Shown: positions 1 to 11,980 of the stretch, piece after piece
Layout of the letters: every line of letters starts with the position of its first letter
How positions within the stretch are numbered: the first letter of the stretch is position 1
Origin: Nitrospinota bacterium
GTDB taxonomy: Bacteria > JADFOP01
Length of the DNA: 23,912 nucleotides
Direction: 5' to 3'
Assembly: GCA_022562795.1 (NCBI GenBank)
Contig: JADFOP010000036.1
Span: 1-23,912, forward strand
Program-made: the position numbers and the translations under genes
Notes under the pieces: model-generated
The model's input: only the letters and a program-made list of their open reading frames with translations
The model's database searches: none
What the model was told of the DNA's origin: nothing

Positions 1-1585
1 CCATAACGTGGTCGGGCCGCTCGATGAGGGTGAGGGCCGTCCCCGTGATGGCGCCGTCGGTAAGGCCGGTGCACTCAAGGGAATCGTAGAGGCCGTCGCC
101 GTCAATCGTGACGGGTGTAGCGACCACCGCGTCGGCGCCGGCAGGGGCGCCGGGGGCGGTCACCACGTAGATGACCACTAGCCAGAGGTCGTAGATGCGC
201 AGGCCAAACCCGTCGTCGGGCCGAATCTTCACCTTGACGATTCGATCCAGGGCCGCCCATGATGTCGGGGCCCCCCAGGTCATCTCGGTTATCGCGGCCT
301 TGGGTGAGATTCTGATGCCGTCGATGTAGGCGTCGTTCTTGTTGACGATGTAATTGGTCTCCTCGTACTGGTAGTTGCAGTGGTAGGTGGCTGAGACTAT
401 CTCGCCCGAGTTGGCCAGGGGCCCCCAGTCCTTGAATCTGATCTGAGAATATTGACCGAGCGGGGGGGCGCCCCCCCACGTGGTGCGGTTGGAGTAGGCA
501 AAGGTCGTCTGGTCATCGACGCCCAAATCGTAAGCCTTGACATCATCCAGCCACGAGCCGGGATTGTCGCTCCCCGTCTCATCGTCCGCCGTGGGCTTTT
601 CGTTGTCGGTCGTCTCGCCCGTCTCGTGCTGATGCCTTTGAATTATCGCCGGGGTGTTGAGCTTGAGGCTGACGACCGAGGAGCCGGGCAGCAGGGCGGT
701 GTCTTTCAAATCGAGCGTGTACTCGCCAGCCCCCAAAGCGGTCCCCGCGACGCGGACGCGGCTCACCGTCTTCATCGGGAACGCGGGGCCCAGGTAGGTG
801 TATTCGGTCTTCTTCTCTATCACCGCGCCGCCCCGGTTGTGGAAGACTGCCGTGGTGGAATTCTGGGCGCGCGTCAGCCCGGTCAAGTCGTCGCCGCTCT
901 TGCCCGTGTAAGCTATCTCCTCCTGGCCGACGATGACGGTGCTGCTTGATGGGAAGCGGGTGGCGTCGGAGAGCTCCAGCGGGCCGGTTGAGGCCGATGT
1001 GATGTAGGCCCTGAGCAGGCTCCTCGCCCCGGCGTCGACGGGGTAGACCGGGACATCCTCGACCGTCCCTATGATTGGCCCGCAGACGCGCCCGATCGCC
1101 TCCGGCGCGGCGTTCGGGAAGTCGGTAGTGTTGATTTTATAAAGCGGGAGTGGGTCGCGCTGCGCCATCTCAATCCCGCTCACGATGACCTCAACGGTAT
1201 CGGCGGTGATGGAGGCGGCCTCCTCGGCCTGGCCCACGAAATCGGTGATGAGGTCTGCCGAGGCGTCGGCGCCCTTCATCCACCACTTTATCGTCACCGT
1301 GGCGAAGGCTATCGGGTGGGAGATGAGAAGGTCGGAAAAGCGGGAGAAGCCCGCAACCGTCTTGCTGTTAGCGAAAGAGAGCCTAAGCTCGCGGGGCTCG
1401 TTGGTCTTCGAAAAATCGTCGAAGCCGCCGACGACATCGGGCAGCTCCGTAAGCAGGCCCAAATAATCGTTCCCATCGGGGGCCGAGCTTATCGATTGGT
1501 CCGAGACGCGGATCGTCAACCCGTCGGCAAACGCGACGGTCACGAGAGCCCGCGCGTCTATCCCCCGCATCAAAGATTGGGCCAT
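1..1585 (-). CDS. Phage tail-tip / hub-type protein (partial, runs off the left edge)
   Basis: The minus frame opens at ATG 1585 (MAQSLMRGID) and stays open for 528 codons to the window edge, so the C-terminus is missing. It is the last visible gene of the structural operon, after the tape measure and a distal-tail-like gene, which is where siphophage tail-tip, hub or fibre proteins sit. Residues of roughly 205-265 form a beta-rich segment with the pattern LSDATRFPSS, EEIAYTG, LTGLTRA, followed by a conserved His and Gly; I know this motif from phage tail-tip and fibre proteins. The N-terminal 150 residues look like a compact beta domain. I see no signal peptide or membrane segment. No strong Shine-Dalgarno precedes 1585; the in-frame ATG at 1570 is an alternative. 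Assignment to hub rather than fibre is inference. Confidence 0.72.
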   Translation of the reverse strand, partial: MAQSLMRGIDARALVTVAFADGLTIRVSDQSISSAPDGNDYLGLLTELPDVVGGFDDFSKTNEPRELRLSFANSKTVAGFSRFSDLLISHPIAFATVTIKWWMKGADASADLITDFVGQAEEAASITADTVEVIVSGIEMAQRDPLPLYKINTTDFPNAAPEAIGRVCGPIIGTVEDVPVYPVDAGARSLLRAYITSASTGPLELSDATRFPSSSTVIVGQEEIAYTGKSGDDLTGLTRAQNSTTAVFHNRGGAVIEKKTEYTYLGPAFPMKTVSRVRVAGTALGAGEYTLDLKDTALLPGSSVVSLKLNTPAIIQRHQHETGETTDNEKPTADDETGSDNPGSWLDDVKAYDLGVDDQTTFAYSNRTTWGGAPPLGQYSQIRFKDWGPLANSGEIVSATYHCNYQYEETNYIVNKNDAYIDGIRISPKAAITEMTWGAPTSWAALDRIVKVKIRPDDGFGLRIYDLWLVVIYVVTAPGAPAGADAVVATPVTIDGDGLYDSLECTGLTDGAITGTALTLIERPDHVM

Positions 1586-1647
1586 TGCTGGCGCGGTCAG
1601 GGTTTTCAAAGGCTATGCCTTTCTATCTACCAGGGTAGCTGGCTACT

Positions 1648-1697
1648 GCGTTAATGGCGCTCGATACAGCTTCATTAGCTGACGAAGCACCGTGGCC
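1648..1697. repeat. 50-bp intergenic repeat, copy 1
   Basis: This 50-bp segment matches 6210-6259 at 38 of 50 positions without gaps, sharing GCGTTAATG and GATACAG blocks. Both copies lie between phage structural genes, just after the upstream gene's reading frame would need a spacer. It may be a decayed mobile palindromic element or a shared regulatory or processing site; I cannot tell which. Confidence 0.45.
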
Positions 1698-1715
1698 TAC
1701 GAGGTAGCCTGCTAC

Positions 1716-2477
1716 TCAATTCGCTTCCCGAAGGTTCAGCTTGATGTTCCAGCGCCCATCGCTCGCCAGAACGACCTGAACGGGCCTAACCAGCTCCATC
1801 CAGTACCGGCTAGTGGACGCGTCCAAATCCCAAAACCAAAACGGCTTTAAGCTGTCGCCGCCCGCCGCCTCTTCGGCGAGTAGGGTGTCCTTGAAGCTGG
1901 TCGGGACGTTGGCGACCTCGATCCGAAGGGTCTTTTGCGTATTGCCCCGCTTGGCTTTGAAGGCGGCGCCCGACGGGCCGCGTAGGACGGTTATGTTAGG
2001 CGCCTTGCCCAAGGCCGCCCCGAAGCGATAATTGCGCTCGAAGGTCTTCTGCTCGGTGAGAAAGAGCTCTCCCACCTCCGGGGCGCTCGAAGGGGCCGTG
2101 ATGCGGAGCCGCCAGTAGCGTTTCGTGAGCGGGCCTCCCGAGACGCTGAGCTCTATCGTCCCCGCCGCCGCGACGAAGGAACCCGCTCCCCCGTCGTAGC
2201 CGCTCCAGACCGCGTTGTCGGGGGAGTGCTCCAGAAAGCAGGTGAGGCCGGTCAGGTTGTGGCCCGCGATGAGGGCTGTATCGACCTTGAATGCGCCAGA
2301 GGCGCCTTGATCTATGTTGATGGCCTTGTCTCCCGAGGCGTCCGCCGCCTTCCAGGGGAAGACGAGGTCTCTGTCGTAGAGGTGCTCCTTCGGGTTTCCG
2401 GACGCGGCATCGGTCACCGTCACGACGGCGCCGCTCTGCTCCAGGAGGTTGGCGAAGGCGAATTGGACGGTGGGCAT
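1716..2477 (-). CDS. Putative distal tail / minor tail protein
   Basis: A 253-residue protein without membrane segments, Gly/Ser/Thr-rich and predicted mostly beta. The first 140 residues look like a discoidin-like (carbohydrate-binding type) fold: a segment around GHNLTGLTCF followed by a YWRLRI strand, as in many F5/8-type domains. The C-terminal part, ending in strands such as RYWMELVRP and GRWNIKLNLREA, resembles the closing ring region of distal tail proteins. The ATG is preceded by a GGGGAGGGGG purine run at a workable distance. It lies between the tape measure and the tail-tip gene, the usual place of the distal tail protein that joins tube to tip. Family assignment is inference from position and composition. 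Confidence 0.55.
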   Translation of the reverse strand: MPTVQFAFANLLEQSGAVVTVTDAASGNPKEHLYDRDLVFPWKAADASGDKAINIDQGASGAFKVDTALIAGHNLTGLTCFLEHSPDNAVWSGYDGGAGSFVAAAGTIELSVSGGPLTKRYWRLRITAPSSAPEVGELFLTEQKTFERNYRFGAALGKAPNITVLRGPSGAAFKAKRGNTQKTLRIEVANVPTSFKDTLLAEEAAGGDSLKPFWFWDLDASTSRYWMELVRPVQVVLASDGRWNIKLNLREAN

Positions 2478-2510
2478 TAGGCGCTACCCCCTCCCCGTCC
2501 CATGTTGATG

Positions 2511-2541
2511 GTGTCGGGGTCAGGGGCGACCCCGACTACCC
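2511..2541 (+). repeat. Family B palindromic repeat (short copy)
   Basis: A hairpin-forming element, GTCGGGGTC, short loop, GACCCCGAC, then TACCC. It is a shortened member of the family seen at 6157-6205, 11089-11136, 11276-11322, 12130-12180 and 23517-23550. It fills most of the gap between the tape measure gene and the next tail gene. Confidence 0.7.
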
Positions 2542-2553
2542 ATATAGGCTGCA

Positions 2554-3282
2554 TCAGGCCGCCCCCCTTCTCTGGTGGCGGGCGACGACCTTGGCTATCT
2601 GGCGGCCGTCGAGGTTGACCGGCACCACGATCGTAATCTCGCTTCCTCCTCCGCCCTCCCTCGCAGCGAGCTCGTCGAAGGCGCGCTGGACCTCGGGAGA
2701 GCGCTCGGCCCGGCTGAACGGGACGACGAGCTCGGCCTGGCCCCTCTCGCTCGTCATCAACAGGGTCGGCTGGGTTGTGACGGCGCCGTGCTGGGCGATA
2801 CCTATATTGGAGAACTGAGCGTCGAATCGGGCCCTAAGCTGCGCCCCCGTCAGGGCGGTCGTAAAGCTAACTGCGCCGAACTCGCCCAGGGCGGATGCGG
2901 CCCGCCGGGCTGACGCCACGATCCGGTTTAGGGCGGCGGTGGATTGATTGATCGAAGAAGCCATCTTGCTCTGGGCGACTGCCGCCTGTCGGGAGACCTG
3001 ACTTATTGCTCCTAAGGCCGACGCAAGGCGGATCGCCTCGACCGTCTCCCCGGCCAGCGCGTTGGTCATCTGCTGGAGCGCGGGGGATGCGGCCTTGATG
3101 GAGGCGGCCAGATCGATGGCCTCGAGCGACCGCTTAACGTTCGTCCCTACGACGCTGATTCTCTGGAGCGCCTGCGAGCCACGCTCGCCCAGACGGGCCA
3201 GGGCCCGCTCGGCCCTGACCGAGGCGCTGGAGACCTCCTCCCGGCCGGTTATTTTAAGGCTGACTTCAAAGGCCTGCGCCAT
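2554..3282 (-). CDS. Very short tape-measure-like tail protein
   Basis: A 242-residue, Ala-rich, strongly helical protein placed directly after the G/GT chaperone gene, where the tape measure protein belongs. Its start overlaps the GT stop as TAATG. The N-terminus (FEVSLKITGREEVSSASVRA) and the middle read as continuous helix with Ser/Ala/Gln heptads. The C-terminal 90 residues (MTSERGQAELVVPFSRAE, then ITIVVPVNLDGRQIAKVV) resemble the terminal segment found on many phage tape measures. Usual tape measures have 600-2000 residues and carry hydrophobic transmembrane stretches; none is present here. It could be an internally deleted gene kept in frame, or a genuinely small one giving a very short tail. 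Confidence 0.68.
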   Translation of the reverse strand: MAQAFEVSLKITGREEVSSASVRAERALARLGERGSQALQRISVVGTNVKRSLEAIDLAASIKAASPALQQMTNALAGETVEAIRLASALGAISQVSRQAAVAQSKMASSINQSTAALNRIVASARRAASALGEFGAVSFTTALTGAQLRARFDAQFSNIGIAQHGAVTTQPTLLMTSERGQAELVVPFSRAERSPEVQRAFDELAAREGGGGSEITIVVPVNLDGRQIAKVVARHQRRGAA

Positions 3283-3949
3283 TACCTCTTCATCCTCTCT
3301 TCAAGCACGTCCGCTACGACTATCTCCAGCAGGGCCAGGGAGCGCCACTCGGCGTGAGTGAGGTCGTCGGGGCCGAACCTGCAGCCCGCCTGGATATGCT
3401 GGCGTATTTCCATAATGTGAAGCGCCCAGCCCTCTGCTCCCCCTGAGGCGGACTGCTCCTCGCCCTTCGCTGCGTCAAGGGGGCAGTCGTCGCAACCTTC
3501 TGCCTCGATCCTCCGCTTGATACAGACATCTTCACCGGGGCACTCCCTGCCTTCTAAGATGCGCCGGAAGGCGCATGCAAGTTTTTTCCCAACTCCTCCT
3601 GATCCTCTGCGGCCACGGCGCTCGATGCCGCTACCGCCTCGACCTTGTGGAGGAGGGGCACGTGGGACTTCCACTCGGAAATCTCGGGCGTGAGCTCCTT
3701 GCCCTCGATGGTGTAGCCCTCTACGCGAACCGCTGTCTGGTCCCAGAGCCATTCGTCGGCCTCGGCCGGGGAGCGTCGCAGGGTCGCCTTGCCTCTGCGG
3801 ACCTCAAACTCGCTCCGCATCCGGCTGTAAGTCCGAAGCTCCGAGGCGGCGGGCTCACGCAGAACGTGAACTAGCCGGTGCTCTTCTCCGCCCCGCTCGG
3901 CGACCAGGTGGATTCTCGTCTCTTGCCAACAGCCTACCTCGTAGCTCAT
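3282..3949 (-). CDS. Tail assembly chaperone GT (-1 frameshift product)
   Basis: This product shares its first ~114 residues with the short G protein, then shifts to the -1 frame at the A-AAA-AAC heptamer (3581-3587) and continues to the stop at 3282, giving 222 residues. The frames match exactly: 668 bases plus the one re-read base make 223 codons including the stop. The extension is Cys-rich (CPGEDVC, then CDDC, then a later Cys) and ends in LTHAEWRSLALLEIVVADVLEERMKR-type helices, typical of T domains that bind the tape measure. In lambda-like phages a small fraction of GT chaperones the tape measure while the tube assembles. The TAATG junction suggests translational coupling to the tape measure gene. 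The expanded reading is inference from the site, not a measured product. Confidence 0.78.
3554..3949 (-). CDS. Tail assembly chaperone G (unshifted product)
   Basis: A 131-residue protein beginning MSYEVGCWQETRIHL, 10 bases after the tail tube stop. I chose ATG 3949 because a G-rich stretch (GGGGGG, 6-11 bases upstream) can act as ribosome binding site and because longer readings upstream overlap the tail tube gene. The protein is acidic and charged, with GKATLRRSPAEADEWLWDQ in the middle, and ends at a TAG just after the hairpin of the frameshift signal. Its position between tail tube and tape measure, and its overlap with a -1 frame extension, fit the lambda G/GT class. The equivalent proteins act in the cytoplasm as chaperones and are absent from the finished virion. 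Confidence 0.75.
   Translation of the reverse strand: MSYEVGCWQETRIHLVAERGGEEHRLVHVLREPAASELRTYSRMRSEFEVRRGKATLRRSPAEADEWLWDQTAVRVEGYTIEGKELTPEISEWKSHVPLLHKVEAVAASSAVAAEDQEELGKNLHAPSGAS
3559..3600 (-). promoter_or_regulatory. Programmed -1 ribosomal frameshift signal
   Basis: On the coding (minus) strand there are three elements in order: a Shine-Dalgarno-like AGGAGGAG (3593-3600), five bases, the heptamer A-AAA-AAC in the correct phase (3581-3587), four bases, and a perfect 7-bp stem with a 4-base loop, ATGCGCCTTCCGGCGCAT (3559-3576). The zero-frame stop TAG follows at 3554-3556. This is the same architecture as dnaX and lambda-type G/GT sites: internal Shine-Dalgarno, slippery heptamer, downstream hairpin. 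Confidence 0.85.
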
Positions 3950-3959
3950 ATCGGCCCCC

Positions 3960-4988
3960 CTAGGCCATGTAGCTGGCGATGTTGTTGCGCACTGTAATGT
4001 CGAGCGGGTAGCCGCTCGTGGCGTCGTGGAAGACGTTCGCCTCGATATCGTAGACCGCCATGCCGTCCTCAAAGCCCATGGGCAGGGCCCGGTATGAGAG
4101 CCGGGGAAGCGTGATGGTGAGAGTGTGCTTGTAAGCGCCTTCGATGGCAGCCCCAACCGCCGTTATGATGGCCTTCAGGTAGTCGCCTGCCTCGAGGTGG
4201 TCGCGCTCGACGGCGTCGGCTACGAGCAGGCGGAAGGCGAGCTCGACCTCCCGGCGCTTTCCGTACTCAAGCCGGCCCCTGTAGAGCCCGCTGCCGGGGA
4301 AGTAGCCGTCATCTTCCATCGGGTTGTTGGCGACCGATAGGTTGAAGCTCTTAATACGGGAGGAAACGTCCACCTCGCTACCGGTCGGGCCGACTTGGAA
4401 GGTCACCCCGTGCATGCGCAAAAAGCTGCCGGCCGTCACCGACGGCATGGCGAGCGTCGAAGTCTCCCTGTATCCGCTGCCCACCAAATTCACTTTTAGT
4501 TGAAGCCGCCCCGGGCTCTCTGCGGAAATCTCGAAATCGGCGACAGCCAAGTCCCGATACAGGCTTTTCAGCGCAGCGCCGCTGGTGGCCTGCTCGACGA
4601 GGGAGGTCACGGGGAGAGAAACGGAGCTCGTAATGAAGCGGCACTGGTGGTCGTAGGTGTTGGGCGCGCCGACGCTGTCGGGCTGGGATGTGGTCACCTG
4701 GCCCAGTCCGAAGGCCGCCGCCCAGCCGGCCATGAGCGAGGTGAGATCGAAGTTGCGGGTTACTCGGACGTCCCACCGCTCGATCTCCTGCGACTCCGGG
4801 AATCCGCCTGAGGCGACCCCCCGCCCTGCCTGCTCTGAATCTGTCTCGACCGTCGGCGTCCTCACCACCACGTCGGGCCCCTTGAAGGGGGTCGCGAGGG
4901 TGAGGTCGGCGTCGGCGAGCTTCGTCCCATAAGCCGACTGCTTCTTCGTGGAGAAAGCCCAAAGGACGTCAAAATCGCGCTCAGACAT
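3960..4988 (-). CDS. Phage tail tube (major tail) protein
   Basis: A 342-residue beta-rich protein starting MSERDFDVLWAF, with an upstream GGAGGAGGGG purine run and ATG. It lacks signal and membrane segments. Features that fit siphophage tail tube proteins are the N-terminal QSAYGTKLA segment, the pattern IERWDVRVTRNFDLTSLMAGW for a hairpin arm, then a C-terminal strand-rich half with SFNLSVANNP, a Gly/Tyr turn and a VFHDATSGYP segment. It lies directly before the G/GT chaperone genes, as tube genes do, and no tail sheath gene precedes it. Absence of a sheath argues for a non-contractile tail, as in the transposable siphophages B3 and D3112, rather than a Mu-type myovirus. It carries one copy of the short CGCCTGAGGCG palindrome (4803-4816), encoding ASGG. 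Confidence 0.8.
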   Translation of the reverse strand: MSERDFDVLWAFSTKKQSAYGTKLADADLTLATPFKGPDVVVRTPTVETDSEQAGRGVASGGFPESQEIERWDVRVTRNFDLTSLMAGWAAAFGLGQVTTSQPDSVGAPNTYDHQCRFITSSVSLPVTSLVEQATSGAALKSLYRDLAVADFEISAESPGRLQLKVNLVGSGYRETSTLAMPSVTAGSFLRMHGVTFQVGPTGSEVDVSSRIKSFNLSVANNPMEDDGYFPGSGLYRGRLEYGKRREVELAFRLLVADAVERDHLEAGDYLKAIITAVGAAIEGAYKHTLTITLPRLSYRALPMGFEDGMAVYDIEANVFHDATSGYPLDITVRNNIASYMA

Positions 4989-5029
4989 ACATTACCCCTC
5001 CTCCGCCTCGGCGTGCTCCCTTCCCGTAT

Positions 5030-5076
5030 GGACAGGGCGGCCAGGGCCTTCTTAAGGCAAGGCTGCCCCTACACAG
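5030..5076. repeat. Degenerate REP/BIME (family A)
   Basis: A worn copy with GGACAGGGC at one end and GCCCCTACACA at the other. Its outer end supplies the GTG-TAG that terminates the DUF1834 gene on the minus strand (stop at 5069-5071), as in the RAYT gene. Confidence 0.5.
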
Positions 5077-5542
5077 GAGTAAAATCGACGCTGATTTCAT
5101 ATGTCGCCTCGTAGATTGAAGCATCCCTGGTGTTGATCACGAACCGCTCGGCCACGGGCTCGGGCGGGCCGACGTCCAGGCCCAGGGACTTATTGGCAAT
5201 GAGGCCCCGAACATCCCGGAGCATCTGGTAGGTCCCGGTCATTTCAACGTCACCCCGCCTCTGGGCTTTTTCCCCTCGGAGGTTCCGGGAGGCCACGACC
5301 ACCAGGAAACGCATCGTCTCGTCGTAGACCCCCTTGGCGGACTTGGTATAGCGGCTTGAGTCGTAGACAACGAGCAGGGCGGGGAATAGCTTCAACACCC
5401 GGCTCAAGTCCTCGTCCTCGAGCTCGCCCTGGTAGCTGTCCACGATGCGTGCATAGCCTCCCCCGCCCACCGGGCCGATGGGGGCCGCGTTTATGGCTGC
5501 CAGGATCGCGTCTTCGACCTGCGTTATGGTCTCGTTAGCCAC
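5069..5542 (-). CDS. DUF1834 family (Mu gp37-like) head-tail / tail completion protein
   Basis: A 157-residue protein, MANETITQVEDAILAAI, beginning with GTG at 5542. The N-terminal helix, the repeated strand-helix alternation, and the ending SIYEATYEISVDFTPV are typical of DUF1834 proteins that sit downstream of the virion morphogenesis gene in Mu-like operons; in Mu the relative is gp37. Function in the family is assumed to be head-tail joining or tail termination and is not proven. The start has only a weak AAGGGA. A REP-like element begins 10 bases upstream, and another ends the gene by supplying its TAG. Confidence 0.72.
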   Translation of the reverse strand: MANETITQVEDAILAAINAAPIGPVGGGGYARIVDSYQGELEDEDLSRVLKLFPALLVVYDSSRYTKSAKGVYDETMRFLVVVASRNLRGEKAQRRGDVEMTGTYQMLRDVRGLIANKSLGLDVGPPEPVAERFVINTRDASIYEATYEISVDFTPV

Positions 5543-5552
5543 GTTGTTCCCT

Positions 5553-5625
5553 TGTAGGGACAGCCTTTAGGCTGTCCGGCCTTTAGTGCCCCAAGCCCGC
5601 GGACAGGGTGAACCCTGTCCCTACA
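5553..5625. repeat. REP/BIME pair, family A
   Basis: Two hairpins in inverted arrangement: TGTAGGGACAGCC-TTTA-GGCTGTCC, then GGACAGGG-TGAA-CCCTGTCCCTACA. The outer arms TGTAGGGACAG and CTGTCCCTACA are complementary, so the unit is a BIME. It fills the gap between the virion morphogenesis gene and the DUF1834 gene, 10 bases from the latter's start codon. Confidence 0.85.
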
Positions 5626-5651
5626 CAGCTGATGACGACCCATCTGACACG

Positions 5652-6110
5652 CTAAATCCCACCCGCCAGGTGCTCCCCGACTATTCTGGCGATTACTTCC
5701 ACGTCGGACTTTTGGAAGACAAGATAGGGCCTGGCGGGGATTGTGGTCGCGTGGCCCCGCCCGGCCCGGCCACCGAACTGGTGTATCCGGGCGTATATGA
5801 CGTTCGATCCAACCGCGAGTTCATCTCGCTCCGCCCTGAAGGTGATGGAGCCCATAAGCCTCCCGGTATCGACCAGTAGCTTCGTCTTGGGCGCCTTGGC
5901 CTTGAGCGTCGCCGAAGCCAACGGTTTCCATCTCGTGGGCCTCCCTCCGGCCCTGAAGTTCTCCCTGATTGAGCGGAGCATGTGGAAGCCCCCGGCCCGA
6001 AGGGGGACGGTAAGGTCCTTCGCCCTTTCCCGGATGCCCCGCAGCGCGGCCTCTGCTCCGCCTAAGGCGGACAAGCCCTCAACGTTGATGTGGACCGAAA
6101 ATCCTGACAT
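5652..6110 (-). CDS. Phage virion morphogenesis protein (Mu gpG / P2 gpS family)
   Basis: A 152-residue protein starting MSGFSVHINVEGLSAL with a GGAGG ribosome binding site eight bases upstream. Conserved features of the family are visible: an N-terminal helical region, the WKPLASATLKAK segment, LLVDTGRLMGSIT, NVIYARIHQFGG, and the IPARPYLVF segment before the C-terminal helix. Family members complete the tail terminus or the connector. In the Mu-like order it comes before DUF1834, as here. The segment LSALGGAE is encoded by a perfect copy of the 15-bp palindrome (6057-6071), showing that this repeat is tolerated in a coding sequence. Confidence 0.88.
   Translation of the reverse strand: MSGFSVHINVEGLSALGGAEAALRGIRERAKDLTVPLRAGGFHMLRSIRENFRAGGRPTRWKPLASATLKAKAPKTKLLVDTGRLMGSITFRAERDELAVGSNVIYARIHQFGGRAGRGHATTIPARPYLVFQKSDVEVIARIVGEHLAGGI
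6057..6071. repeat. 15-bp palindrome (family C) inside a coding sequence
   Basis: A perfect TCCGCCTAAGGCGGA palindrome in frame in the virion morphogenesis gene. Near-matches occur in other phage genes at 3438-3452, 4803-4816 and 11003-11017. Intergenic copies are at 8585-8611, 23277-23291, 23377-23391, 23414-23428 and 23796-23810. Confidence 0.75.
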
Positions 6111-6156
6111 AAGATGTCCTCCAGGGACCGCATCGCGGTCCGTGGCCTTTCGAGAA

Positions 6157-6205
6157 GGTGTCGGGGTGCTGCAGGCAGCCTTGGCTGGCGACTCCGACTA
6201 CCCGG
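6157..6205 (+). repeat. Family B palindromic repeat
   Basis: A 49-bp element beginning GGTGTCGGGGTGC and ending CCGACTACCCGG. The reverse complement of 11089-11136 matches it with three substitutions and one single-base gap. It lies between the DUF1320 gene and the virion morphogenesis gene. Confidence 0.8.
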
Positions 6206-6209
6206 ACTT

Positions 6210-6259
6210 GCGTTAATGTTGCTAGATACAGTTTCGATTGCTGATAAGGCATCGTAGCC
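6210..6259. repeat. 50-bp intergenic repeat, copy 2
   Basis: Matches 1648-1697 at 38 of 50 positions without gaps. It occupies the gap just downstream of the DUF1320 stop at 6262, adjoining the family B element. Confidence 0.45.
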
Positions 6260-6261
6260 CC

Positions 6262-6708
6262 CTAAAAATTGTCCAGGGTGCCGGTCGTATCGCCTTTCTT
6301 ACTGGTGAAAACCCGATCCGCCTTCTTCCGCGTCGTCTGCACCTCCTCGTCGTGGGTCTCGGCCGGGGGCGCCTCTACGCCGAGCGACGCCTCGCCGCGG
6401 GCAAGCGCCTTGAGCAACTTTGTGGCGTCCTCGTAGCGCTTCGTGCGGACGGGGGCGTCGAGGTCTCGCCTCGAGTAGAGGTTGTAGATTGCGACATCCA
6501 CCGATAGCTTGCGGATCAGGCCGGGTACTGGGCTAAGCGGCACCGTGTAGCGCTCCTGAAGGTGAGAGTTGACCTCGTCGTCGGCGTCCGCGATGGCTCT
6601 GGCGACGACGTTTGAGTCCACCTGGCCCGCGCCGGAGTCGTCGGTCAGCTGGATAAGCTCGCTCTCAGAGAGCTGGTCCTCAATGTCCGACTGGGTAATA
6701 TAGGCCAA
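6262..6708 (-). CDS. DUF1320 family (Mu gp36-like) head-tail adaptor
   Basis: A 148-residue protein. The start is TTG at 6708 (reading MAYITQSDIEDQ), supported by a strong AGGAGG eight bases upstream, which overlaps the stop of the preceding gene. DUF1320 hallmarks seen are the N-terminal YITQSDIEDQLSE, the ADADDEVNSHLQERYTVPLSPVPG segment, and VDVAIYNLYSRRDLD. The family's Mu relative (gp36) follows the major head gene and is thought to form a connector ring. A Lys/Thr-rich tail after about residue 100 is weakly conserved. Neighbours follow the Mu-like order. Confidence 0.85.
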   Translation of the reverse strand: MAYITQSDIEDQLSESELIQLTDDSGAGQVDSNVVARAIADADDEVNSHLQERYTVPLSPVPGLIRKLSVDVAIYNLYSRRDLDAPVRTKRYEDATKLLKALARGEASLGVEAPPAETHDEEVQTTRKKADRVFTSKKGDTTGTLDNF

Positions 6709-6711
6709 GGG

Positions 6712-7044
6712 TTAATCCTCCTTCAGCTCGCCCAATCGTTTCTCGGCGGCTCTAATGACCGTCCGGCGCCGACGGGTTGAGCTCTCCCAATCGAGAACGG
6801 CCTGCACGGCGACAGCATCCTCCAGGCCCTCGATGTGCTCTCTCAGCTCCCTTGCCCCAGTGGCCCATGTGGGCCCTTCTTGCTCCTCGACCTCTTCGAC
6901 GACGAGCCAGGGGTCGTTCAGGATGGCTTCGGTCATCTCCTGCTCGGCAAGGAGGACCGGCTCGGGCGTGAAGGCCCTGCCGCTTCGCCGGTAGAGGCCA
7001 CTGGGGTGGCTGGCTCTGAGAGAGGTTTTATACGCGCGATTCAC
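6712..7044 (-). CDS. Small phage protein of unknown function
   Basis: A 110-residue, charged protein beginning with GTG at 7044 (MNRAYKTSLRAS) and a GGGAG ribosome binding site nine bases upstream. It lies 22 bases after the major capsid gene and abuts the DUF1320 gene. The C-terminal half is helical and rich in Glu/Arg (TRRRRTVIRAAEKRLGELKED). I do not recognise a family. Position between capsid and adaptor suggests a minor head or head-tail protein. It is in frame, well spaced and translated in the operon direction, so it is probably real. Confidence 0.65.
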   Translation of the reverse strand: MNRAYKTSLRASHPSGLYRRSGRAFTPEPVLLAEQEMTEAILNDPWLVVEEVEEQEGPTWATGARELREHIEGLEDAVAVQAVLDWESSTRRRRTVIRAAEKRLGELKED

Positions 7045-7066
7045 GATTGCAATCTCCCTATAAGCC

Positions 7067-7999
7067 TTATACGAAGGTAGTCAGCACGGCGTTTTGCCAC
7101 AGGCCGTAGCCGACGTTGTAGCGGGCTTCGGCGCCGAAAAACATGTGCTTTCGCATGAAGCGCGCGTAGTCGACGTCCTCGCCCTCCCTGACGCCAACCT
7201 GGAGGAGCTTGACGGCCTCTCGCATCTGGAAGATGAAGGGCTTAAGGAAGGTATCGGTCTTGAAGAGATACCACTTGGCCCCGGCCGTCAGGTGCGGGTT
7301 GACGATCAGGTCGGCCGCATCGCTGAGGATGTTGGTCTCGCCACCGCTCAAGGTATCTTGCTTGAGCGTCTTCTCCGCCACGCCCCACAGCGCCGGGGGA
7401 ACCATGACGAGGAGCCCCGATTGAGCCTCTTCGTGGAAGGGCTCGCCCCTGTCGTCTTTGAAGAGCGCCAGGACGACTCTGGTCGCATCGAAGGCGGCCG
7501 CAAACTCCGCTTGAGTCACGGCGTTTGGGTCGGCGGCGTTGTAGGTGCGGTCGTTATCCTGCGTGCCGCTCTCGCCTTCGGAGTGGTCGGTGTCGAAGAA
7601 GAACTGGCCGTCGTAGCAGAGCGTGGACTCGCCGTCTTTGATAAGCTGGGAGACGAGCTTGTTGGGGTGGACCTTCGCCCGCTCGGCCAGGTCCTGGACG
7701 CGAATCTGAATCGCTCCTATCTGGTCGTCCTTGAAGGCGTTCCTATCGACTGCGATCGTGGACTCCCAGTCTTTGTTGACGATGGTGTACTGGTGGTCGA
7801 GCAGCCCCTTGGGCACCCGCTCGTCTTCCCACTCCCGCATGGCGGGGGCGCTTCCGAGCCAGCCGTACTTCTCCTGTGAAGAGCTGCTCGGAACCTCGGT
7901 GGCTATCTTCGGCCAGAAGGCCTCGGCCGAATGGTAGGCGCTAAGGAAGTGCGCCTGGAGGCCCTTGGTCACTACAATTGGACTGACAACGTCGCCCAT
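7067..7999 (-). CDS. Major capsid protein, Mu gpT-like
   Basis: A 310-residue protein with a strong GGGAGGTGAC upstream of ATG. It shows the gpT family pattern: N-terminal GLQAHFLSAYHSAEAFWPKIATEV, then EKYGWLGSAPAMREWEDERVPKGL, the QYTIVNKDWESTIAVDRNAFKDDQIG block, the LCYDGQFFFDTDHSEG motif, and the C-terminal YNVGYGLWQNA. Length agrees with Mu gpT. These are HK97-like coat subunits that assemble into the procapsid with scaffold, then are matured by the gpI-type protease; genes for both lie upstream in the same operon. No sign of disruption, so the capsid gene is intact. Confidence 0.93.
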   Translation of the reverse strand: MGDVVSPIVVTKGLQAHFLSAYHSAEAFWPKIATEVPSSSSQEKYGWLGSAPAMREWEDERVPKGLLDHQYTIVNKDWESTIAVDRNAFKDDQIGAIQIRVQDLAERAKVHPNKLVSQLIKDGESTLCYDGQFFFDTDHSEGESGTQDNDRTYNAADPNAVTQAEFAAAFDATRVVLALFKDDRGEPFHEEAQSGLLVMVPPALWGVAEKTLKQDTLSGGETNILSDAADLIVNPHLTAGAKWYLFKTDTFLKPFIFQMREAVKLLQVGVREGEDVDYARFMRKHMFFGAEARYNVGYGLWQNAVLTTFV

Positions 8000-8020
8000 G
8001 ATTTGTCACCTCCCTTGTGG

Positions 8021-8527
8021 TTAAGCGTTCAGCAGGGTTTTAAGCTCGTTGATGAGGTCGGCCTCAGGCTGGCCGTAAGTGGCGTCGGCGTTGGCGACCA
8101 GAGCCGCAGCTCTTCGCTCGAACGCCGGCTCGATGTCGATCCAACCCTTGGTGGCCGAGACGTATTCTGCGAGACGCCCGGCCATGATGCCGTTGGTGCC
8201 GGTGGCGTCGTCGAAGGTCTGGTCGTCCACGACGTACATCATCGAGCCGACCATCGCCTGGGTTATGGAGCTGGCGTCCAAGAGGAAGACGCCCTTCCGA
8301 TAACACCGGCACTTGACGGCCCCGTCGGCTCCGGCCGAGTTGTCTTTCTTCTCGTAGGCCACGAGGCCGCCTCTAAGGTTCGCCGCATCCGAGGCGGGCA
8401 CCAGGTAGCCTCCTGAGTCGATGGCTACTAAGGCCCCCTTGTATATTGTGGTTGCCCCCTTCACAGGAATGGCCAGAAGAACGCCATCCTTGCGGTCTGT
8501 TTCCCTGTTCTGTGTCAGTGCTGCCAT
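8021..8527 (-). CDS. Capsid decoration / cement protein, DUF2190-like
   Basis: A 168-residue protein starting MAALTQNRETDRKDGVLLAIPVKG, with AGGAGGG upstream of the ATG. The sequence is rich in small beta strands: YKGALVAIDSGGYLVPASDA, LRGGLVAYEKKDNSAG, and GSMMYVVDDQTFDDA. These repeated segments resemble DUF2190-type decoration proteins. It lies between protease/scaffold and major capsid, as these proteins do in several Mu-like phages. It would bind the outside of the expanded capsid and stabilise it. The family call rests on pattern and position. Confidence 0.72.
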   Translation of the reverse strand: MAALTQNRETDRKDGVLLAIPVKGATTIYKGALVAIDSGGYLVPASDAANLRGGLVAYEKKDNSAGADGAVKCRCYRKGVFLLDASSITQAMVGSMMYVVDDQTFDDATGTNGIMAGRLAEYVSATKGWIDIEPAFERRAAALVANADATYGQPEADLINELKTLLNA

Positions 8528-8584
8528 GCTTTACCCTCCTCTCCGCTTCAGGCGTATAATTGGCGCCGAAAAAGGCCTCACCGG

Positions 8585-8611
8585 CCCGCCTGAGGCGTCC
8601 GCCTAAGGCGG
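8585..8611. repeat. Tandem pair of family C palindromes
   Basis: CGCCTGAGGCG directly followed by TCCGCCTAAGGCGG in the 85-bp gap after the protease/scaffold stop. It can fold into one or two hairpins. Confidence 0.7.
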
Positions 8612-8612
8612 T

Positions 8613-9218
8613 CTAGGCCTCCTGGTGGTGGTGCTCGGAGCGGGCTAACTCCTCCAGGCTCACGCCCATCTTTACGAAGTCGGCCCTGTTCTTCTCATAG
8701 AGCCGGACGACGCTCTTTGGAACCCTGATCCGCTCCTCGCCATCCCCGAAGGTCACAACGTCGCTCGAGGCGCCAGCATCGGCGGCGACCTCGCTCAAAG
8801 GGACGGCGGAGCCTGCCTTACGCGCCTCGTAGGTTTTCATGAGCCGGGCTCTGGGAGTCGCCTCTTCGCCTTCGTCGAACGTGACCAGACTGGCCTCGTC
8901 GTCGGGCAGAGCGAGCAGCGTGATTTTTAGATCCTTGGCCTCGGCCGGGGTGGCCTTGCCCTGGGAAACGAGGCCCTCGCAGAAGGCCGCCACCTCGCGC
9001 TCGGCGGCCTCGGCATAAAGCTTCGCGATGCTCTCTTCGAGCTCGGCGGCACTTCGCTCGGCCCTGAAGGCCCGCTCCTTGAAGGTCGCCGCCTCCTGGT
9101 CCTTTTCCTTCAATTGCTCCTCGAAGCGTTTGGTGACCTCGGCGACGGTTTCCTCTACGACCTTCGCGACCTCGGCCTCGCCGAGCTTTTCGAGCCTCTC
9201 GTTGTTAGTTGTGCCCAT
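8613..9218 (-). CDS. Nested scaffold protein from an internal start (Mu gpZ-like)
   Basis: An in-frame ATG at residue 164 of the protease is preceded by GGAGGAGGACCGG, a near-perfect ribosome binding site at correct spacing. Initiation here would give a 201-residue scaffold, mostly coiled coil followed by an acidic tail, ending in SEHHHQEA. Mu makes its scaffold gpZ in the same way from gene I, and lambda Nu3 is nested in gene C. The purine run also encodes Glu-Glu-Glu, so chance cannot be excluded. Confidence 0.6.
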   Translation of the reverse strand: MGTTNNERLEKLGEAEVAKVVEETVAEVTKRFEEQLKEKDQEAATFKERAFRAERSAAELEESIAKLYAEAAEREVAAFCEGLVSQGKATPAEAKDLKITLLALPDDEASLVTFDEGEEATPRARLMKTYEARKAGSAVPLSEVAADAGASSDVVTFGDGEERIRVPKSVVRLYEKNRADFVKMGVSLEELARSEHHHQEA

Positions 9219-9707
9219 CCGGTCCTCCTCCTCGGCTTGTGTAAGCTGCTTAAAATCCACCGTCATAGACGGCCCGCCGCAGCCCTGGCCGCCTGCAGCG
9301 GCTGGATGGGGCTCGGCCAACTTAATGGGCTCCAGGCCCTTGACGGCGGGGACCGCCGCTCCGAGCAGCGCGACCCTTTTCAGGTACTTTTTGCCCGTGC
9401 CCTGGAAGTCGAGGTAGACCTCGGCGCTTCGGTGCTTGTAGCGGCCCGAGCTGACGAGCTCCTTTAGTTCGGCGGGGACCTGGGATATGCGCGCAACCAG
9501 CGTGTCGCCGAGCCTTTTAAGCTCTTTCACCCACCCGTAGGCAGGGCCGCGGTGCTCCTCGCCCGGCGGGGCGTGGTCGAGAACGAGCGGGGCCTCATGT
9601 AGCAGTGGGTCGTAGGCCCGAGCAATCTCCTCCAAGTCTTCCATGGTGATCTCCCCCTGCGGGTAGCTGCCCGCCCGGGAGATTTCCAGCTCCACTAAAT
9701 CTCTCAT
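8613..9707 (-). CDS. Mu gpI-type head maturation protease with scaffold domain
   Basis: A 364-residue two-part protein. Residues 1-130 form the protease part: VLDHAPPGEEHRGPAYGWV includes a His that fits the catalytic His; YKHRSAEVYLDF holds the likely Ser; LKRVALLGAAVPAVKGLEPI matches the end of the domain. Residues 148-250 are a charged coiled coil (EEQLKEKDQEAATFKERA), and the C-terminus, from residue 250, is acidic. This matches Mu gpI, peptidase family U35, where the C-terminal part is the scaffold. The start overlaps the portal stop as ATGA, implying coupling. A strong internal start for the scaffold part exists at 9218. Confidence 0.85.
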   Translation of the reverse strand: MRDLVELEISRAGSYPQGEITMEDLEEIARAYDPLLHEAPLVLDHAPPGEEHRGPAYGWVKELKRLGDTLVARISQVPAELKELVSSGRYKHRSAEVYLDFQGTGKKYLKRVALLGAAVPAVKGLEPIKLAEPHPAAAGGQGCGGPSMTVDFKQLTQAEEEDRMGTTNNERLEKLGEAEVAKVVEETVAEVTKRFEEQLKEKDQEAATFKERAFRAERSAAELEESIAKLYAEAAEREVAAFCEGLVSQGKATPAEAKDLKITLLALPDDEASLVTFDEGEEATPRARLMKTYEARKAGSAVPLSEVAADAGASSDVVTFGDGEERIRVPKSVVRLYEKNRADFVKMGVSLEELARSEHHHQEA

Positions 9708-11044
9708 GGCTCGCCCTCCCTGTAATCGTAGATCGCTCTTTGGCGCTTGGGCGGCCTCTCGGCCAGCGAGGCGCCGGTCCCCTCATGCGGGGCGGGCTCC
9801 CGCTCCGAGCCCCCTTGGGGGGATGGGGGCGGCGTCACCAGGGCCTCGCCCTCGGCCGGCGGCGGTATCCTGTAGCGCTCGTAGAAGTAGCGCGAAGAGA
9901 CCGGCAGGCCGATTCTAATAAGGCGCTCGTCGCGCTCGCTCAGGGCCTGGAGGTCCCCGATCTCCTCTGCGTGAATCTTGAGACGGGGGTATTCGGAAAT
10001 TCCCGTAAAATTGAAATCGACGAGCCAGGGGATGAGCTGCTCGTTGACGGTGGCCTCGAGCGAGGCGGCGTCGGCCTCGAGGATGTCCTGGCGCACATGG
10101 GCGTGGACCATCCCCAAGGCCTGGGTGCCGTGGCGCCCCTCGCCGCTGGTGAGCGTCTGGCCCAGAATGGCCTTCGCAACTTGAGAATCGAGGTACTCGC
10201 AAAACTCCTGGTAGGTGTCGACGCTTCCGCTCCGGGTCGCCTCCAGGAGCTCGATGACCATCCCCTGCGGGATGACGACGGCGCTATCGGTCTGGATCGC
10301 CTCGCAGGCGCTCAATAGCTCGTCCTGCTTGTCGCTCTTGGTCCCTTCGGGGTACTTGCCGATGGCTGTCGGCATGCCGAACTTCTCGGCGAAGATGACC
10401 CAGAACTTGATGACGTTCTTCTTAAACCACCAGTGCCAGTAGACGCTTTTTAAAACCGCCTCGCCGTAGGGGTTCTCGTATCGACCCCCGTGGCGGTGGA
10501 CGATGAATTTTCGAGGCGGCAGCGCGATCCCCTCATAGGAGCTCTCGGTGGTCAGAAGCCGAAGCTCGCCTCCCGGGCCGAAGACGAACCGGTCCTGCTT
10601 TCTGCTCCTTATGTCGCTGATGGCTACCCTGCCTCCCTGCGCCTCCCAAAGAATTTCGCTAACCGAAAAGCCCTTGGGGACGGCGTCGAGGAGGCTATTC
10701 AGATCCTCGTCGAATCGGGGCACCTCGGCGAGGGCGAGCCGGACGAAGTCCGCTATCTCAATATCTCTTTGAGACTGCGAGGCGGGGACGATCTCGCGCT
10801 CCTTGCTCATGACCCCGAGCCTGCGGGTCTGCAGCAGCGAGGCGATCTGTGGGTCCTTGTCCTCCATCTCGTCGTAGAGGTCGTAGCCCCTGCCGGCAGC
10901 CTCGCGCGAGAGCACCTCGTCGGGGTTGGAGAGGATTCTGCCTACAAAGCCGCGCGTGATGTCCCGGCCGGCCGTCGCGATCTCTTCGGCCTCGGGCTTC
11001 GCCCCGCCTGAGGCCGATTCCTTGAGCTCAACAACATTCGTCAT
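9704..11044 (-). CDS. Phage portal protein, DUF935 (Mu gp29-like)
   Basis: I start this gene at ATG 11044 (MTNVVELKESA) because AGGAG lies seven bases upstream; a longer in-frame opening to 11113 runs through repeat sequence. The product has 446 residues. DUF935 features seen are RGYDLYDEMEDKDPQIASLL, the FIVHRHGGRYENPYGEAVL block, VYWHWWFKKNVIKFWVIFAEKFGMP, and the EATVNEQLIPWLVDFNF block. It forms the dodecameric portal vertex. The next gene (protease) overlaps by four bases. In Mu the large terminase precedes the portal and the minor head protein gp30 follows it; neither is present here. Confidence 0.92.
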   Translation of the reverse strand: MTNVVELKESASGGAKPEAEEIATAGRDITRGFVGRILSNPDEVLSREAAGRGYDLYDEMEDKDPQIASLLQTRRLGVMSKEREIVPASQSQRDIEIADFVRLALAEVPRFDEDLNSLLDAVPKGFSVSEILWEAQGGRVAISDIRSRKQDRFVFGPGGELRLLTTESSYEGIALPPRKFIVHRHGGRYENPYGEAVLKSVYWHWWFKKNVIKFWVIFAEKFGMPTAIGKYPEGTKSDKQDELLSACEAIQTDSAVVIPQGMVIELLEATRSGSVDTYQEFCEYLDSQVAKAILGQTLTSGEGRHGTQALGMVHAHVRQDILEADAASLEATVNEQLIPWLVDFNFTGISEYPRLKIHAEEIGDLQALSERDERLIRIGLPVSSRYFYERYRIPPPAEGEALVTPPPSPQGGSEREPAPHEGTGASLAERPPKRQRAIYDYREGEP

Positions 11045-11050
11045 GTTGCT

Positions 11051-11081
11051 CTCCTGTACGGACGAGGTTTGACTCTGTCCG
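11051..11081. repeat. Degenerate family A REP overlapping the portal leader
   Basis: On the minus strand a worn GGACAGAG...CCTCGTCCGTACAGG hairpin lies directly before the portal gene; the repeat end, TACAGG, forms part of the AGGAG ribosome binding site. Homology to the family A repeat (CTGTCCCTACACAGG) is partial. Confidence 0.45.
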
Positions 11082-11088
11082 CCACACC

Positions 11089-11136
11089 CCGGGTAGTCGG
11101 GGTCGCCAGCCAAGCCGCCTGCGGCACCCCGACACC
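11089..11136 (-). repeat. Family B palindromic repeat, inverted copy
   Basis: The reverse complement of this 48-bp element matches 6157-6205 with three substitutions and one indel. It lies in the untranslated leader of the structural operon and can form a hairpin (GTCGGGGTGCCGC and its partner). Confidence 0.82.
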
Positions 11137-11497: not shown

Positions 11498-11980
11498 ATG
11501 GAATCCACTGCTCGGCCCAGAAGAAAATCCCCCCGCCTAGAGGGGTTCGATTATTCCGAATCCCGGTGCTATTTCGTCACCACCTGCACATTTCGGCGGC
11601 GTCGGGCGTTCACCGATGCTCGTTTGAATCAGACACTTCTTGCACATCTCCATGAACAGGCCAAGATTCACGGCGTCGTGCTCCACGCCTGGTGTCTGAT
11701 GACAGATCATCTCCACCTCCTTGTCGAAATGCCGGGTGATGGGCTTTCGCTGTCGGAATGGGTCGGGCGCTTTAAGGGCCACACCAGCCGAAGGGTCCGC
11801 GCGATGGGTTTCCGGGGATGGCTTTGGCAGGGGCGGTTCCACGAGCACATTCTCCGTCGGGAGGAAAGCATCGAGCGGTTGGCGGAGTACATCGTCCACA
11901 ATCCCGTTCGTAAGGGCTTGGTCGAGACGTGGGTTGAATATCCGTGGGCAGGGATGGGCATCGAAGACATCAAAGTGTAG
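11498..11980 (+). CDS. RAYT: REP-associated tyrosine (Y1) transposase
   Basis: A 160-residue protein starting MESTARPRRKSPRLEGFDYS. It shows the Y1 transposase features: the HUH-like motif MTDHLHLLVE (His71, His73), the WQGRFHEHILRREESIERLAEYIVHNPVRKGLVETW block, and a conserved Tyr (Tyr131) in YIVHNPVR. These nick and rejoin single-stranded DNA at REP hairpins. Flanking repeats match those in other bacteria's RAYT loci: family A hairpins end 41 bases upstream and begin at the 3' end. The stop codon, TAG 11978-11980, belongs to the repeat itself (GTG-TAG-GGA-CAG). No strong Shine-Dalgarno is visible before ATG 11498. Length agrees with the family. Confidence 0.88.
   Translation: MESTARPRRKSPRLEGFDYSESRCYFVTTCTFRRRRAFTDARLNQTLLAHLHEQAKIHGVVLHAWCLMTDHLHLLVEMPGDGLSLSEWVGRFKGHTSRRVRAMGFRGWLWQGRFHEHILRREESIERLAEYIVHNPVRKGLVETWVEYPWAGMGIEDIKV

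Follow-up and report, generated by a model that had tools for sequence, protein, structure and literature searches.

A candidate −1 frameshift signal with a Shine-Dalgarno-like element at 7-nt spacing in the putative tail-chaperone gene of a Mu-headed prophage

The locus described here raises the question of how two overlapping reading frames, lying between the tail-tube and tape-measure genes of a Mu-type prophage, are expressed, and which elements of the mRNA might join them. The window, by which we mean the whole 23,912-nucleotide stretch of DNA that was analysed, is contig C36 of a 2.15-Mb assembly. Mu-type head and structural genes, all on the minus strand, occupy it from position 1 to ∼11.1 kb and give Pfam-type matches (Mu portal, Mu-like gpT capsid, Phage_tail_S and Mu gp37); after the head genes come a phrog_290 tail protein and then G, T and the tape measure. 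To the right of ∼11.1 kb a transposase-like open reading frame and host-type genes were recognized by eye. Neither G nor T had a match in Pfam or PHROG, and G was therefore named by its position and architecture. The features of the locus are these:

3960..4988, minus strand: major tail (tube) protein, the gene upstream of G (weak PHROG tail match; 79% identical homologue).
3554..3949, minus strand: G, putative tail assembly chaperone, 0-frame product of 131 amino acids (open frame; homologue with 61% identity and the same order of genes).
3593..3600, minus strand: Shine-Dalgarno (SD)-like AGGAGGAG, GGAGG core at 3599-3595 (read directly; −10.3 kcal/mol with the anti-SD of a same-class genome).
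3588..3594, minus strand: 7-nt spacer from GGAGG to the heptamer (read directly; the dominant spacing in the viral scan described below).
3581..3587, minus strand: putative slippery heptamer A_AAA_AAC (correct phase; conserved in L003/L085).
3559..3576, minus strand: 7-bp hairpin ATGCGCC-TTCC-GGCGCAT with a UUCC loop (−11.6 kcal/mol alone).
3554..3556, minus strand: 0-frame stop TAG ending G (8 codons past the slip site in both genomes).
3282..3587, minus strand: T extension in the −1 frame, 101 codons (62% identical homologue; dN 0.26, dS 0.79).
2554..3282, minus strand: tape measure protein, 242 amino acids, internally deleted (start overlapping the T stop).

The initial annotation had described an SD, a phased A-AAA-AAC and a 7-bp hairpin in that order, and all three could be read in the minus-strand sequence, which runs 5'→3' as CAGGAGGAGTTGGG-AAAAAAC-TTGC-ATGCGCC-TTCC-GGCGCAT-CT-TAG. 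The SD-like element consists of the in-frame codons CAG GAG GAG (Gln-Glu-Glu); the GGAGG-bearing stretch is CAGGAGGAG, its synonymous counterpart without GGAGG being CAAGAAGAA. The 0 frame reads GGA AAA AAC, which gives the X_XXY_YYZ phase, and the hairpin begins 4 nt past the heptamer. The −1 frame proved open and coupled to the tape measure as annotated, its stop TAA (3284-3282) overlapping the tape-measure ATG as TAATG, and its length is 101 codons rather than the ∼107 first given. AAAAAAC occurs five times in the window where 1.04 would be expected, so that its presence carries little weight by itself, and phase, position and conservation are what count. The SD-like element and the downstream fold each lie merely in the top 8–9% of this phage's windows, and the 65-nt downstream fold is no better than its shuffles (z 0.13). 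The anti-SD was that of a same-class genome, whose 16S rRNA ends GGATCACCTCCTTT, no 16S gene of this genome or of its same-genus relative having been found in the assemblies.

The element is very probably a −1 programmed ribosomal frameshift signal of the G/GT tail-chaperone type, a kind of frameshift that is itself known and in the textbooks. Most ribosomes would pass AAA AAC and stop at TAG, yielding the 131-residue chaperone G, while a minority would move back by one base at A_AAA_AAC and read 101 codons more, which gives a GT fusion. If lambda is a guide, the tape measure would be coated by many copies of G and few of GT, which would draw in the tail-tube subunits. An elongating ribosome that has the lysine codon in its P site could pair through its 16S anti-SD with the GGAGG lying 7 nt upstream, and the resulting mRNA–rRNA hybrid would resist forward movement and favour re-pairing one base back, a slip that downstream mRNA structure may assist. 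We infer the slippage, its rate, the action of the SD and the chaperone role from the layout and comparison of sequences.

A search of the phylum, comprising only three genomes, found a homologue in one other, a member of the same genus (L003 and L004; G002 contig C177, 25,112 bases), and this relative is the only close homologue in the collections searched. Its contig has a near-identical match in JALLOF010000025.1 from Nitrospinae bacterium AH_259_B05_G02_I21. Taken as a fusion, G and T are 62% identical between the window and the relative. The initial annotation had proposed that the heptamer, the SD and the hairpin be sought in homologues, and the three fared differently. The relative retains A_AAA_AAC at the same codon, preceded there by GTA and in the window by GGA. 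A-ending codons make up 13% of Gly and 7% of Val codons in these genes, and because AAA serves just 24 of 120 lysines (20%), the retention of xxA AAA AAC in both genomes is not codon bias. The SD is weaker in the relative, with a core AGAGG in the same 7-nt register and a pairing energy of −6.3 kcal/mol that is ordinary for this phage. The 7-bp hairpin is not conserved there; the relative could form another stem, of 8 bp, whose two halves lie far apart, and we rejected the hairpin as a conserved element.

The strong SD had been singled out as the less ordinary part of the cassette, a view that our surveys overturn, since the tail-chaperone genes of many phages carry an SD at this same, fixed spacing of 7 nt. 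We first surveyed Mu-capsid loci from IMG/VR for open reading frames no shorter than 80 codons in which an in-phase heptamer lies near the end and the −1 frame, itself long, runs on into a further long open reading frame. After removal of near-duplicates there were 72 sites in the correct phase, compared with 52 and 28 in two control phases. AAAAAAC accounted for 31 non-redundant sites in the correct phase and four in phase 1, and did not rank with the commonest heptamers in phase 2. Ten of the surveyed G proteins were scanned, and five matched phrog_344, phrog_16513, phrog_569 or PF08748 (tail chaperone or tail families), the comparators that match known tail chaperone families being those with phrog_344, phrog_16513 and PF08748. 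In many Mu-headed phages the 0-frame stop directly follows the heptamer (AAAAAAC-TGA/TAA/TAG); in the window it comes 8 codons later. The G and T of the window are not related to the surveyed chaperones by hhalign (probability 0.2–0.3%), and a direct homology search of viral contigs and phage records found no homologue of either. Among 386 other genomes there were weak matches (E 0.003–0.009) over partial stretches, PF08748 had no match anywhere across 372 genomes, an absence that is uninformative because it extends to the controls, and an AlphaFold model of G built from two sequences had a mean pLDDT of 38.

SD analysis of the survey was carried out on 41 non-redundant sites with an A-type heptamer and a nearby tape-measure-like open reading frame. 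Anti-SD pairing over these sites peaks at 6–7 nt, with a mean energy of −5.4 at spacings 4–9 against −2.9 in control windows (p 3e-10). At positions −12 to −8 the commonest bases are G, G, A, G and G (22, 33, 28, 27 and 25 of the 41, respectively), a consensus GGAGG lying 7 nt before the heptamer, which is the register occupied by the GGAGG core of the window; the window SD is stronger than that at any of the 41 sites. Downstream of the surveyed sites the mRNA is predicted to fold more stably than later in T (−20.3 versus −11.9 kcal/mol, p 2e-7; GC 0.62 versus 0.57).

These data bear on the alternative that survives best, namely that AGGAGGAG merely reflects a run of acidic Gln-Glu-Glu codons and that the heptamer and downstream structure suffice, which we hold to be possible but doubtful. 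It is consistent with the in-frame reading of the element, with the reduction to AGAGG in the relative, and with a synonymous-codon control across phages that is marginal (p 0.049), partly because this control keeps the glutamate excess at that codon. Coding demand would not, however, readily account for the choice among glutamate codons, since at the fourth codon upstream of the heptamer GAG is used 18 times and GAA twice, whereas at the three nearer codons GAG is used twice and GAA 21 times (p 5e-8); the rest of G has 57 GAG and 36 GAA (p 0.01 versus the fourth codon upstream). Nor does it explain the register, as the GGAGG match peaks at spacing 7 and the same-phase spacings 4, 10 and 13 peak less. 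One G family supplies 17 of the 41 sites, which are thus not fully independent, and when counted by family the SD signal stands at p 7e-4 over 16 G families, with the SD core present in seven of the 16 and the 7-nt register fixed across unrelated families. In the window, moreover, no start codon follows the GGAGG that such an SD could serve.

The same spacing emerged when genes were not chosen beforehand. We scanned viral contigs for GGAGG-N(1-18)-AAAAAACTGA; among the matches listed, at least 63 were non-redundant, and spacing 7 was found in 19 of the 63 (p 8e-10), the next most frequent being spacing 9 with nine. An upstream 0-frame open reading frame together with a long −1 open reading frame accompanied 17 of the 19 listed matches at spacing 7 and nine of the 44 elsewhere (p 3e-7). 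The window GGAGG and the AGAGG of the relative both lie at exactly spacing 7, and neither was used to define that spacing. The G and T proteins at the scanned loci are very diverse; this phage's capsid found no match in the DNA of these loci and its portal one weak match only, so that the GGAGG-N7 module is seemingly not confined to close relatives. The same pattern in 386 bacterial genomes gave no peak at 7 (eight of 134 matches), and half of those eight resemble ordinary gene starts.

It is very unlikely that the GT fusion arises through slippage of RNA polymerase on the A run. A run of six A is indeed present, but six is short for efficient RNA polymerase slippage, several surveyed sites carry GGGAAAC as their heptamer, and the SD register and the phase favour the ribosome over the polymerase.

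It is likewise very improbable that T is a separate gene read from its own start inside G, with the heptamer incidental. The T frame of the window does extend far upstream without a stop, and has an ATG 55 codons and a GTG 29 codons before the heptamer. In the relative, however, this frame is closed by a TGA lying 4 codons upstream of the heptamer, and its first ATG, GTG or TTG comes only at codon +60, past a Cys-rich part; these 60 start-less codons are nonetheless conserved, the Cys-rich part included, and with a stop upstream and no start within them, only a change of frame gives access to them. The initial annotation had named a homologue that lacks the heptamer and keeps a separate T start as the observation that would count against frameshifting; the opposite was found, the heptamer being kept and an independent T start being absent. 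The −1 frame extends 101 codons past the heptamer in the window and 96 in the relative, and its dN and dS indicate purifying selection, which together with the position and the coupling supports the lambda-like G/GT reading of that annotation. In a comparison that spans only the ten codons of overlap, the second position of the 0 frame, which is the wobble position of T, is the least conserved (identity 0.50 versus 0.90 and 0.80). Five cysteines of the T extension (3282-3587, minus strand) are common to both genomes and possibly form a metal site; conserved cysteines are also seen in the T domains of some Mu-headed phages, without detectable homology to the T of the window.

The prophage in the window (positions 1-11113) is probably a truncated remnant, judging by comparison with the same-genus relative. 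Its tape measure aligns to residues 1–70 and 391–606 of the relative's 606-residue protein and its portal only to residues 1–411 of the relative's 732, the C-terminal (MuF-type) part being absent, and the terminase and neighbouring genes found in the relative are missing beside the portal. An open reading frame resembling a REP-associated transposase (11498-11980, recognized by eye) lies at the broken end. The prophage of the relative is far more complete, its contig carrying a portal, a terminase-like open reading frame and a full-length tape measure. The truncation might suggest that the frames were separated by a mutation during prophage decay or by an error of assembly, and not by programming. 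This is very improbable, since the separately assembled, more complete relative shares the relation between the frames, the heptamer and the position of the stop, and the −1 frame is under purifying selection. Because the prophage is degraded, the present function of the frameshift signal is doubtful; it may be a relic, or may serve a reduced particle.

The part of the cassette that appears to merit attention is therefore not the frameshift but an SD at a fixed 7-nt spacing that recurs across phages. We lean towards the view that GGAGG-N7-A_AAA_AAC, in many cases with a stop directly after it and a structured region, forms a recoding module of phage tail-chaperone genes that is widespread and convergently maintained, its SD spacing being fixed and shorter than the 9–14 nt established for the dnaX type. 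In the open-licence literature, a scope outside which key older papers fall, no account of an SD at a fixed register in tail-chaperone genes came to light. If correct, internal anti-SD pairing would be a major tuner of the G:GT ratio in many phages, and the fixed register would give a sequence criterion by which tail-chaperone frameshifts could be located and aligned in phages that lack annotation. It would also make testable the use of the anti-SD by elongating ribosomes at sub-dnaX spacing, with an AAC heptamer that reportedly slips poorly in E. coli. A ribosome-binding-site score is one of the features from which phage frameshifts are predicted in PMC10885494.

Compared with known systems, the locus most resembles lambda G/GT in its overlapping frames between the major tail protein and the tape measure, its slip site near the end of G and its T in the −1 frame (PMC5009743); it differs in having A_AAA_AAC in place of the lambda site, a strong SD and no match to a chaperone family. 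The G/GT frameshift is a widely conserved feature of long-tailed phages, and chaperone sequence similarity between phages is low (PMC5009743). Escherichia coli dnaX shares the SD, the A-rich heptamer and the hairpin in the same order (PMC5009743, PMC3711429). It differs in gene and purpose, the slip in the window giving a longer rather than a shorter product, in having AAG where the window has AAC, and in spacing, which is 7 nt here and 9–14 nt for SD stimulators of −1 shifts (PMC5009743); the slipperiness reported in E. coli is much lower for A_AAA_AAC than for A_AAA_AAG (PMC5009743). Unlike the downstream hairpin of dnaX-type signals, that of the window is not conserved in the relative; folding is enriched survey-wide. 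SD stimulators are known from dnaX and, by estimate, from 56% of IS elements (PMC5009743), and a conserved SD was found in three of 13 IS and prophage clusters, the accepted range being 6–17 nt before the second heptamer base (PMC4066793), within which the GAGG of the window falls at 8 nt. The heptamer of the window also occurs in the tail chaperone genes of phiCbK (gp93/gp94) and its relatives, of the Acinetobacter phages Loki and IME_AB3 and of halovirus HCTV-2, and the accessible parts of the published accounts describe no SD at these sites (PMC3556154, PMC5313236, PMC5009743). IME_AB3 does have GAGG ending 7 nt before the heptamer, as in the window, whereas Loki, in keeping with the codon-based alternative, has no SD at its slip site. 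In halovirus HHTV-2 (L356:31000-31100) GGAGG motifs lie shortly before GAGGAAAACTGA at the end of the chaperone gene, an arrangement that resembles the cassette without a perfect heptamer. The transposable phages PaMx73 (T TTT TTC) and Mu (−2) use another slip site or direction, and share with the window Mu-like head genes accompanied by a frameshifted tail chaperone (PMC4378225).
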